DNA of 64,000 nucleotides from Haloterrigena salina JCM 13891 (GTDB lineage Archaea > Halobacteriota > Halobacteria > Halobacteriales > Natrialbaceae), in the NCBI RefSeq assembly GCF_000337495.1, contig NZ_AOIS01000067.1, positions 273,466-337,465 of the forward strand, written 5' to 3'. The notes below the pieces were generated by a model, which made no database searches, had not been told where the DNA came from, and saw only the letters and a program-made list of their open reading frames with translations. A program made the position numbers and the translations under genes. How positions within the stretch are numbered: position 1 is the stretch's first letter; each line of letters opens with the position of its first letter. Positions 59,878 to 64,000 of this stretch are shown in pieces.

Positions 59878-60101
59878 TTCGGTCGAAGTGATGGGTTCCC
59901 AGCGCAAAAAACGTGTCCTCGTCGCATCGAATGTCGTCAGCGCGTCGAGCGCCGTCGAAGCTATCGGACCTGGACCCCAATCGAGGCACCCTCGTCGTCG
60001 ATACGGGTCACGACCGGCGGCTCGCTATCAACCACAGTGACTTTCCGATATTCTTTCCAAAACGAACACACCTAAAAGTTAGGCCGTCAACAGTAGGGCC
60101 G

Positions 60102-60926
60102 ATGGTACACCTCGAGCGGATTCGGATTCGGCCGGTCGCGTCCCTCGATGCGATCTCGGTTTCGGAACGGACGCTCGTCGACCGCGGACCGGCGTGGGAG
60201 CGGCGGTATACGATCGTCGAGCGAACACCGGGAAGCGACGCCCGACCCGCGCCGGTCACCGCGGAACGCGAACCCCGACTCCGCAGGCTCGAGACGACGT
60301 ACGACCTCGAGCGAGAGACGGTGACGATCCGCGAACGAGGAAGCGACGAGACCGCGACCTTCCACCTCGACCTCGATCGGGAGTGTTTCGCCTCGTGGCT
60401 CTCGGAGTTCCTCGGCTACTCGGTCGAGATCGTTCGCACCGACGAGAGCGGCGGCCCGAGCGCCGCAGTTCCGTCGGGGCCGACGGTCGTCAGCGCCGAG
60501 ACGCTCGAGACGGTCGCCGAGTGGTACGACGAGATCGACGCCGACGAACTGTGTCGTCGCGTCCAGCCGACGCTCGTCGTCGGCGGCGCCCCGCCGTTCT
60601 GGGAGGACCGACTCTACGGGCGGGCCGATCGGATCGTTCCCGTCGAGGTCGGGTCGACGACGCTGTACGGGACCGCACCGTCGCAACTGCGCGGCCTCTC
60701 GGCGCGCGACCCCGAGACCGGCGCGCAAACCGACGGGTTTCGGGAGACGTTCGTCGAGCGCCGCCGCGCGACGCTGCCCGACTGGGCGACCGCGGTGCGG
60801 TTCGACCACTACTTCCGGCTGTTGTCCGAGACGCGAGTCCCGCAGGCGTCGGTGGGGACGACGCTCTCGGTCGACGAGCCGGTCACCGTCGGGGAGCCAG
60901 TCCCGTCCCCGACGCCGGCCGACTGA
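60102..60926 (+). CDS. MOSC-domain-like protein lacking the usual cysteine
   Basis: A 274-residue protein with a MOSC-type N-terminal beta-barrel domain (MVHLERIRIRPVASLD) and the MOSC core LCRRVQPTLVVGGAPPFWEDRLYG. The usual conserved Cys before DPxTG is missing; here the text is LRGLSARDPETG. Mo-cofactor sulfur chemistry is thus doubtful. ATG at 60102. Confidence 0.78.
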   Translation: MVHLERIRIRPVASLDAISVSERTLVDRGPAWERRYTIVERTPGSDARPAPVTAEREPRLRRLETTYDLERETVTIRERGSDETATFHLDLDRECFASWLSEFLGYSVEIVRTDESGGPSAAVPSGPTVVSAETLETVAEWYDEIDADELCRRVQPTLVVGGAPPFWEDRLYGRADRIVPVEVGSTTLYGTAPSQLRGLSARDPETGAQTDGFRETFVERRRATLPDWATAVRFDHYFRLLSETRVPQASVGTTLSVDEPVTVGEPVPSPTPAD

Positions 60927-61099: not shown

Positions 61100-64000
61100 A
61101 TGGGAACGGGTCTCGATATCGGACCGGGAGCGCTCAGGGTGGCCGCCGAACCGGCCGGGGAGGCGATCGAATCGGTACCGCCGCTCGTCGTTCCGGTCGA
61201 CGATGCAGCGGGGAGCGACCTGCCGGATGACGGACTGTTCGTAGAGCGAGACGGAACGACCTACGCGGTGGGGGCGACCGCCGAAGCGGTCGCCGACGCG
61301 ACCGGCGCGGCGCCCGAGTCGCTGTTTTCCAACGGTGTCTTGGCGGTCGACGGCTACGCCGAACCGGCTCTCGAGGCACTGCTTGAGGACGAGCTCGAGA
61401 TCCGCGGGAACGACGGGCGACTCTGCTATACGACGCCGGGGACGCTGGTCGACGCCGCGGAGCCGACCGCGGCCCACCGGGAGACCGTCGAGTCGATCGT
61501 CGCCGAGCACGCGGCCGACGCCACGCCGATCAGCAGGGGCTTCGCCGTCGTCTACGACCAGTTGGCCGAGGACAACTACACCGGGCTCGGCATCTGCATC
61601 GGACCGCAGACGACCGGCGTCGCGCTGGCCTACTACGGCGTGCCCGCGTTGGCGTTCTCGCTCGCGAAGGGCAGCGAGTGGATCGTCGAGCGAGCGGCGG
61701 CCGAAACCGGCCGCGAGCCGGCGGAGATCGCGGCCGTCCGCGAGGAGTTCGCGCTCGATCCCGACGCCGCGTCGGGCGAAGTCGAGAGCGCGCTCGCGAA
61801 GGCCCACGACGCGCTGATCGGCGACCTCGCCGACGCGATCGCGGCCGAGGCCGACGAGAACGACGTGCAACAGGGGCTGGCCGTCCCGATCGCGGTCGCC
61901 GGCGACGGCGCGATCGAGGGCCTCGAGTTCCTGCTCGGCGGGCGGTTCGACGCGTCGGCGCTCCCGTTCTCGGTTCGCGGCGTGCGGCTGGCCGACGACC
62001 CCGCCGGGAGTGCCGCCCGCGGTGCGCTCGCGGCGGCCGAGGACGACGTCGACGCCTACGAGGACGTCACCTGGTCGGCGGCCGAAACCAATGGGGACGG
62101 CGACGAGTCGAACGGGGCTCCGGCCGGCGCCGACGCGAGCGGATCGACGACGCTCTCCTTCGACGGCGATCTGGGCGGTGAGGGCGGCGCGGACCGCGAC
62201 CGCGCTGACGACGCCATCGAGCAGTTGTTCGACCGGCTCGCCGACCGCGACGAGGAGATCGAATCGGTCCGAACCGACCTCGAGTCGGCGTTCGAGGACA
62301 TCGCGTACGTCGAGGAGCGGACGGCCGAGGCCGAGACGGTCGCGGAGCTCGACGAGCGCCTCGAGGCGTTCGCCGACGATCTGCGCGACCTCGAAGCCGA
62401 GAGCGAGACGCACGCGAGCGACGAGGCGGTCGACGAACTGGGAGACGACCTCGAGGCGCTCTCGACGGCCTTCGAGGACTTAGAGACCGACGTCGACGGC
62501 CTCGCGACCGAGCTGGAAGCCGACCTCGAGGCGGTCGAATCCGGGCTGGCGGACGACATCGACGAGTTGGAAGCCGAGCTGGCGGACGACATCGGCGAAC
62601 TGGAGTCCGGACTCGAGACCGACCTCGAGACGCTGTCGGAGACCGCCGCTGACGAACGCGCGACCCTCGAGGAGCGGATCGGGGAGCTCGCCGACGATCT
62701 CGAGGGGGTTTCGGGCAGAACGAGCTCGCTTGACGAACGACTCGAGACGCTCCGAGCGGACCTGGAACGGCTCGAGGTGGAGGCCGCGTCCGCGGCCGAC
62801 CTCGAGGACGCGATCGTGACGATCGATCGCCTGGCCGAGACGCTCGCGGCGATCGACGAGGACGTCGATCGGATCGACGATCGTCTCGTCGCTCTGGACG
62901 ACGGCCTCGAGGAGCAGGCGACCCGGGTCGAGGGTGTCGACGATCAGCTCGACGATGTCGACGACCGACTCGAGGATCACGTCGAGCGAACCGACGACGA
63001 CCTCGCGGAACTCGCCGCGGAGATCGAGGCCGTCGAGGCGACGGTCGACGACGAACTGGCCGCCGTCGACGCCGATCTCGAGGACGTGGCGGCGACGATC
63101 GAGGACGAGATCGACGCGGTCGAAGGCGAACTCGAGTCGGTCGACGATCGGATCGGAGACGTCGATAGCCGGGTCGGCGATGTCGACGACCGGCTCGAGG
63201 ACGTGATCGATGACGTCGACGACCGAATTCAGGGCGTCGACGATCGGCTCGAGACGACCAGAACGGACCTCGATACCGTCGCGGAGGATCTCACGGCCGT
63301 CGACGATCGGCTCGAGACGACCGACGACCGCGTCGGGACGGTGGCCGACGACGTCACCGACGCCCGCGAGACGCTGGGTGCCCGAGCCGACGATCTGGAG
63401 GCGCGCCTGGAGAGCGCTCGGGAGACGATCGGGGACGTCGAGGCGACGGCGGCCAGCGACGAACGGGTCGACGCCGTCGAAGACGACCTCGAGGCCCTCG
63501 AGATGGATTTCGAAGAACTCGGAGACAGTGTCACGAGCGTCTCGGAGCGACTCGAGGACCTCGCGGAGCGGACGGCGCTCGAGGATGCGGTCACCGACCT
63601 CGCGACCGACCTCGACGCCGCCGAGAGCGAACTCGCCGATCTCGGCGACGAGGTCGATTCGCTCGAAGTGGAGGTCGACGACCGACTCGAGGCGACGACC
63701 GCCGAATTCGAAGCGACGGCGACCGAACTCGAGGCGCGACTCGCCGACCGGACGGACGACGTCGAGACGAGACTCGAGAACGCGGTCGGATCGATCGAGG
63801 ACGATTTCGCGATGCTCGAGTCGCGCCTCGATCGCCTCGACGAAGCGGCACCAGAGGCTGACGCGGTCGCCGAACTGTCCGATTCGCTCGCTGAGACGCG
63901 GGAGACGGTCGAATCGGCGACCGCGGAGGTCGACGACCTCGGAGACGACCTCGACGCGCTCGAGACGACGCTGACGGATCGGATCGACTCGGTCGAGACG
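61100..64000 (+). CDS. Giant actin/Hsp70-like plus coiled-coil protein (3' end outside window)
   Basis: Open frame of 967 codons from ATG 61100 with no stop before the window end. Residues 1-320 resemble the actin/Hsp70/MreB ATPase fold, with a phosphate-1-like GTGLDIGPGALRV at the N-terminus and a phosphate-2-like GLGICIGPQTTGVALAYYG near residue 155. After a Gly/Ser/Asp linker (about 325-362), residues 363-967 are an almost unbroken acidic coiled coil with repeated DDRLE, VDDRL and DLEDV heptads. No membrane segment is seen. It could be a large cytoskeletal or scaffold protein. Function unknown. Confidence 0.8.
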   Translation, partial: MGTGLDIGPGALRVAAEPAGEAIESVPPLVVPVDDAAGSDLPDDGLFVERDGTTYAVGATAEAVADATGAAPESLFSNGVLAVDGYAEPALEALLEDELEIRGNDGRLCYTTPGTLVDAAEPTAAHRETVESIVAEHAADATPISRGFAVVYDQLAEDNYTGLGICIGPQTTGVALAYYGVPALAFSLAKGSEWIVERAAAETGREPAEIAAVREEFALDPDAASGEVESALAKAHDALIGDLADAIAAEADENDVQQGLAVPIAVAGDGAIEGLEFLLGGRFDASALPFSVRGVRLADDPAGSAARGALAAAEDDVDAYEDVTWSAAETNGDGDESNGAPAGADASGSTTLSFDGDLGGEGGADRDRADDAIEQLFDRLADRDEEIESVRTDLESAFEDIAYVEERTAEAETVAELDERLEAFADDLRDLEAESETHASDEAVDELGDDLEALSTAFEDLETDVDGLATELEADLEAVESGLADDIDELEAELADDIGELESGLETDLETLSETAADERATLEERIGELADDLEGVSGRTSSLDERLETLRADLERLEVEAASAADLEDAIVTIDRLAETLAAIDEDVDRIDDRLVALDDGLEEQATRVEGVDDQLDDVDDRLEDHVERTDDDLAELAAEIEAVEATVDDELAAVDADLEDVAATIEDEIDAVEGELESVDDRIGDVDSRVGDVDDRLEDVIDDVDDRIQGVDDRLETTRTDLDTVAEDLTAVDDRLETTDDRVGTVADDVTDARETLGARADDLEARLESARETIGDVEATAASDERVDAVEDDLEALEMDFEELGDSVTSVSERLEDLAERTALEDAVTDLATDLDAAESELADLGDEVDSLEVEVDDRLEATTAEFEATATELEARLADRTDDVETRLENAVGSIEDDFAMLESRLDRLDEAAPEADAVAELSDSLAETRETVESATAEVDDLGDDLDALETTLTDRIDSVET

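Follow-up and report, generated by a model that had tools for sequence, protein, structure and literature searches.

A long volactin paralogue with a coiled-coil rod and a C-terminal hydrophobic hairpin, a candidate membrane tether for volactin filaments in Haloterrigena salina

The 64,000-nucleotide stretch of Haloterrigena salina DNA analysed here (the window) ends within a gene for a long paralogue of the haloarchaeal actin volactin. Sequence and structure prediction establish the architecture of the product as an actin-fold head (residues 1 to ∼313), a Gly/Ser linker, an acidic heptad coiled coil of ∼890 residues and two hydrophobic helices at the C terminus, and from this layout we infer a function. 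Judged from sequence, the long form may be a membrane-tethered, hydrolysis-deficient volactin paralogue with a role in capturing or capping volactin filaments, a reading held tentatively and with belief and doubt close to balance. Relative to the literature searched, the volactin family and its actin fold are known, and a volactin-family head carried on a long rod with a C-terminal hairpin is new.

Gene, reading frame and actin-fold head

The long form was listed as an open reading frame that starts at an ATG at position 61100 of the plus strand and is still open at the window edge. The window spans C67:273466-337465, and on the same contig the gene closes ∼1 kb beyond the window edge (L009:7507, equal to C67:338506), giving a product of 1,313 residues (L009:3566-7507). 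Residues 1-967 are encoded in the window (61100..64000, +), and the final 346 residues, comprising the remaining coil and a hydrophobic hairpin at ∼1265-1313, lie outside it. Long ORFs on the minus strand facing the coil are read as shadow frames of GC-rich DNA. In the tail region, codon-position GC did not separate the two strands, so the frame is judged coding because head, neck and C terminus are all conserved in it. A same-strand gene whose product has a MOSC N-terminal domain (window 59913-60926, +; E=2.5e-9) lies upstream, and a convergent MFS transporter gene (L009:7839-9059, −) downstream. A MOSC-domain gene upstream (21/36) and a convergent MFS transporter (22/36) are the only neighbors that recur across 36 long-form loci; with no evident link to the long form, neither was accepted as a conserved operon partner.

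Residues 1-313 (61100..62038, +) match the Pfam family Volactin (PF25216) over profile positions 1-321 with E=1.6e-116 and 389.7 bits, membership being defined by a score above the Pfam gathering cut-off (35). An AlphaFold model of the head built from 47 relatives (pLDDT 89, pTM 0.89) found its best solved match in MamK (Z=27.4, rmsd 3.0, 289 residues), with further structural matches to BeeR, MreB (Z about 25) and actin. The profile match places the head in the volactin family, and the model gives it an actin fold; the MamK/MreB matches exclude a non-actin fold. An earlier note, made from the sequence alone, had claimed an actin-superfamily head with two phosphate-loop-like motifs and had proposed profile and structure searches of the N-terminal region, with an unrelated fold as the contrary outcome. 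Those searches returned actin, confirming the claim, and the motifs fall where the note had put them (phosphate-1 and phosphate-2-like). Its identification is refined here to a named family, volactin, with nucleotide-contact residues partly gone.

Nucleotide pocket, distribution and divergence

The phosphate-1 motif of the long form (residues 4-16, GLDIGPGALRVAA; 61109..61147, +; residues 4-15 being GLDIGPGALRVA) corresponds to GLDVGTMN of canonical volactin, and its D6 and G8 are present in 39/40 and 34/40 long heads, respectively. In the connect-1 region (residues 142-147; 61523..61540, +; register from hhalign to MreB and from MAFFT), the window protein has Thr at 142 and Arg at 146 where canonical volactin has Glu. 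Both glutamates are present in 25/25 canonical heads (window-protein numbering); Glu is missing at 146 from 40/40 long heads and at 142 from 38/40. The Glu-Glu-Pro of MreB is assigned by hhalign, run with a single MreB sequence and yielding a weak match (probability 3.9), and by MAFFT to different members of the 142/146 pair. A strand-helix boundary predicted at 145/146 in the head model favors 146 as the equivalent of the MreB catalytic Glu, and since the two registers disagree, the claim is limited to loss of both canonical glutamates. The phosphate-2 motif (residues 161-178, TGLGICIGPQTTGVALAY; 61580..61633, +; residues 161-179 being TGLGICIGPQTTGVALAYY), located by hhalign to MreB DIGGGTT, is degenerate, most long heads having G/E-x-Q in place of the canonical volactin GAG. 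The phosphate-2 Asp of MreB is already absent from canonical volactin, and activity therefore cannot be fixed from residue counts. The adenosine-motif equivalent reads PIAVAG (residues 263-268; 61886..61903, +) for PVVVTGG in canonical volactin. Loss of the nucleotide-contact glycines across orthologs, which the earlier note had counted against an actin-like head, is thus seen in part: the phosphate-1 D-x-G is mostly kept, whereas the phosphate-2 glycines and the conserved Glu are lost. Having lost conserved residues at or near the expected catalytic site, the long-form head probably does not cycle ATP.

Canonical volactin (342 residues) is encoded in the same genome on a different contig (C48:71682-72644, L036), and the long-form head is 32% identical to it. 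Canonical volactin was found in 75/75 sampled Natrialbaceae genomes (group f1), and in 54 of these 75 a long-form head opens a frame of 649-1,361 residues; the 21/75 without it indicate that the long form is dispensable. A profile search of selected genomes recovered at least five long forms outside Natrialbaceae, in families f7 and f10 (frames 780-909 residues), whose full proteins share head, coil and C-terminal hydrophobic pair, overturning a Natrialbaceae-only distribution. Families other than f1 were sampled through a class sample and 37 chosen genomes, and more long forms may exist. All long-form genomes found also encode canonical volactin, a co-occurrence of little weight because canonical volactin is present in all 75 Natrialbaceae regardless of the long form.

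When salactin-like proteins and E. coli MreB served as outgroups, the tree gathered the long heads of all three families on a single branch (91/75); the f1 heads made up one group (100/100) and the canonical volactins another (82/60). One origin of the head-rod fusion is favored by this sequence tree, in which long branches meet, leaving a single origin unproven. When the same genome pairs were compared (own versus f7/f10), canonical volactins were 92-94% identical and long heads 28-34%; by this sequence measure, long heads evolve far faster than canonical volactin. The long form was not accepted as the VolA orthologue, since it lies outside the canonical group in the tree, has 1,313 rather than ∼340 residues and lacks Glu 142/146 and GAG. 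Nor is it salactin: its head lies inside the volactin clade, and the salactin-like rows, recognized by resemblance to the published description rather than by accession, branch outside that clade (98/97). One salactin-like query found no salactin in this genome, its single match being Orc1/Cdc6-like, and the MreB-family match is DnaK.

Beyond the class, the phylum sample held only short forms (full-length matches having frames of ∼326-371 residues). Families f13, f15 and f16 of the phylum, well away from Halobacteria, have short volactin-family proteins, so volactin probably predates haloarchaea. Separately, some f3 genomes (G106, G212 and G270) carry two near-identical canonical volactins, and G106 also has one split copy.

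Linker, rod and C-terminal hairpin

The head is followed by a Gly/Ser/Asp-rich linker (residues 314-365; 62039..62194, +), modeled with low confidence, which contains an LSFD-like motif at 62144-62176 that is found in 28/35 Natrialbaceae long forms. A neck helix (residues 368-395, RADDAIEQLFDRLADRDEEIESVRTDLE; 62201..62284, +) of the pattern DDAIxQLFDRLxxRDEEI, with LFDR present in 32/35 Natrialbaceae long forms, is conserved far above the rest of the rod. The acidic coiled coil begins at residue 366, occupies the window to residue 967 (62195..64000, +) and continues outside it to ∼1255. Across residues 366-1255, heptad power peaks at 29.9 at a period of 3.545, as compared to a mean of 4.8 and a maximum of 11.6 in 500 shuffles, and a period of ∼3.5 was observed in every long-form ortholog tested. 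The tail contains 312 D+E, 71 R and zero K. A whole-chain model of a short ortholog, of low confidence and consulted for helix content only, has a continuous helix in the coil; fully extended, the rod would span ∼132 nm. Composition and periodicity agree with the earlier description of a Gly/Ser linker followed by heptad-rich acidic sequence; the long coil is real, and its length, given there as more than 600 residues, is corrected to ∼890.

The rod varies in sequence and, several-fold, in length (Natrialbaceae proteins of 711 to 1,313 residues, and one of 575), whereas the head, the neck and the anchor persist, which points to a spacer-like rod. An exact tandem copy of a 15-residue coil unit, EADREAAPEGVAERL, was observed at residues ∼1082-1111 (L009). 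Rod length changes through small duplications are suggested. SMC/Rad50 matches lie in the coil and below the NCBIfam and Pfam cut-offs, and the head is volactin rather than ABC-type; a match of arcadin-4 to the tail was likewise attributed to coiled-coil composition only.

Two hydrophobic segments end 40/40 full-length proteins (35 from Natrialbaceae and 5 from the two other families), with median GES sums of 32.6 and 41.0 versus 27.9 for the top-scoring stretch outside them. Nowhere else is the tail as well conserved as at its C terminus (AGGGGAGxVAGG...GxxAVxLGxVLL...). The first segment is Gly-rich and of moderate hydrophobicity; the second is strongly hydrophobic in 40/40, within a C-terminal hydrophobic stretch holding at most two charges, and is often followed by a basic residue. 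Among four genomes searched, no convincing relative of the hairpin was found elsewhere. We infer that the hairpin is inserted in the cytoplasmic membrane with rod and head cytoplasmic (N-in). Of the roles raised in the earlier note, a scaffold that is perhaps membrane-tethering gains support from this hairpin. Nothing points to a motor-like protein, there being no motor signature, or to DNA tethering, the SMC/Rad50 matches of the tail reflecting coiled-coil composition.

Proposed membrane tether and comparison with known actins

Volactin is the haloarchaeal actin HVO_2015 (VolA), which forms dynamic filaments, is required for disks to form on time and is possibly essential (PMC10869688), and it is implicated in compression-induced tissue-like development (PMC7617734). 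In the tentatively proposed tether, a duplicated volactin would have been turned into a membrane linker: the hairpin would sit in the cytoplasmic membrane with rod and head facing the cytoplasm, the rod would dimerize, and the head, not cycling ATP, would retain the actin fold for docking, capping or co-assembly with the volactin filaments of the same genome. The length of the rod would then determine how far from the membrane volactin cables are anchored. Since the same cell contains a filament-forming protein of which the head is a degenerate copy, binding of the head to volactin filaments is the most economical proposal, and the layout of binding head, spacer and membrane anchor reads as that of an adaptor. 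The tether is supported by the PF25216 head and its actin-fold model, the 40/40 hydrophobic ends, the variable rod length, the eroded pocket, the separate clade and the co-resident volactin, and is weakened by the 21/75 genomes without a long form, the Gly-rich first segment and the location of the two genes on different contigs. A more specific version, in which a duplicated actin with a disabled ATPase and a length-tunable tether has become a dedicated pseudo-actin membrane receptor that nucleates, caps or captures volactin filaments at the membrane, is somewhat doubtful.

Fast divergence and pocket erosion are also consistent with a head that no longer acts with actin filaments and has become a ligand- or client-binding Hsp70/actin-fold module, the protein serving as a membrane scaffold for other partners, for example chromosome, envelope or division proteins; the rod composition resembles SMC-like and other spacer proteins, in low-complexity matches only. 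This appears unlikely, as the full-length volactin match persists, the long form is confined, in the sample, to volactin-bearing genomes, and the neighbor genes suggest no other partner. Rather improbable in our estimate is a head that self-polymerizes into a second, volactin-independent membrane-attached filament in the manner of MreB or FtsA, with the rods as a brush between filament and membrane. The modeled actin fold is intact and most long heads retain the phosphate-1 D-x-G. As in FtsA-like proteins, polymerization may need nucleotide to be bound but not hydrolyzed. Against self-polymerization, the conserved Glu and the phosphate-2 glycines are lost, head identity of 28-34% where volactins hold 92-94% is unusual for a contact-constrained actin, and a filament would be expected to be crowded if every subunit bore a 130-nm tail. 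A soluble filament crosslinker, with the Gly-rich hairpin as an oligomerization tip outside the membrane, is very improbable: the first segment does resemble a Gly zipper and is modestly hydrophobic, but strong hydrophobicity marks the second in 40/40 proteins, where the C-terminal hydrophobic stretch has no more than two charges and a basic residue often comes after the second segment.

The tether reading can be set against known actins. Long form and volactin share PF25216 over the full head length. Volactin, however, has ∼342 residues without coil or anchor, is near-invariant in haloarchaea and retains the phosphate-2 glycines as well as both Glu, whereas in the long form the head is fast-evolving and is followed by a long rod and, at the C terminus, a hairpin. 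Salactin of Halobacterium salinarum is likewise a haloarchaeal actin homolog but is short, with an N-terminal charged tail, other motifs and a separate tree branch. MamK and MreB share the actin fold of the long-form head (Z=27.4 for MamK). MreB and FtsA contact the membrane via helices, and RodZ connects MreB to the membrane; to our knowledge, none of MamK, MreB, FtsA and RodZ has, as part of its own chain, a rod hundreds of residues long with a terminal membrane hairpin. The archaeal crenactin gene lies beside a separate gene for the SMC-like coiled-coil protein arcadin-4; these are two genes, whereas the long form joins head and rod in a single polypeptide. In the main text of the open-licence PMC papers found on volactin, salactin, crenactin/arcadin and coiled-coil actins, an actin head on a long rod is not described, and within that literature the earlier statement that this domain order belongs to no described haloarchaeal actin holds.

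How haloarchaeal actin filaments are anchored to the membrane is not settled in the literature found, and the long form provides a concrete, conserved candidate whose design of actin-like head, variable-length spacer and membrane anchor is testable. If the tether reading is true, the long form would clearly exemplify an actin duplicate that became a linker after losing enzymatic residues, and Natrialbaceae, which usually have it, could be compared with haloarchaea in which the sample shows volactin without a long form.
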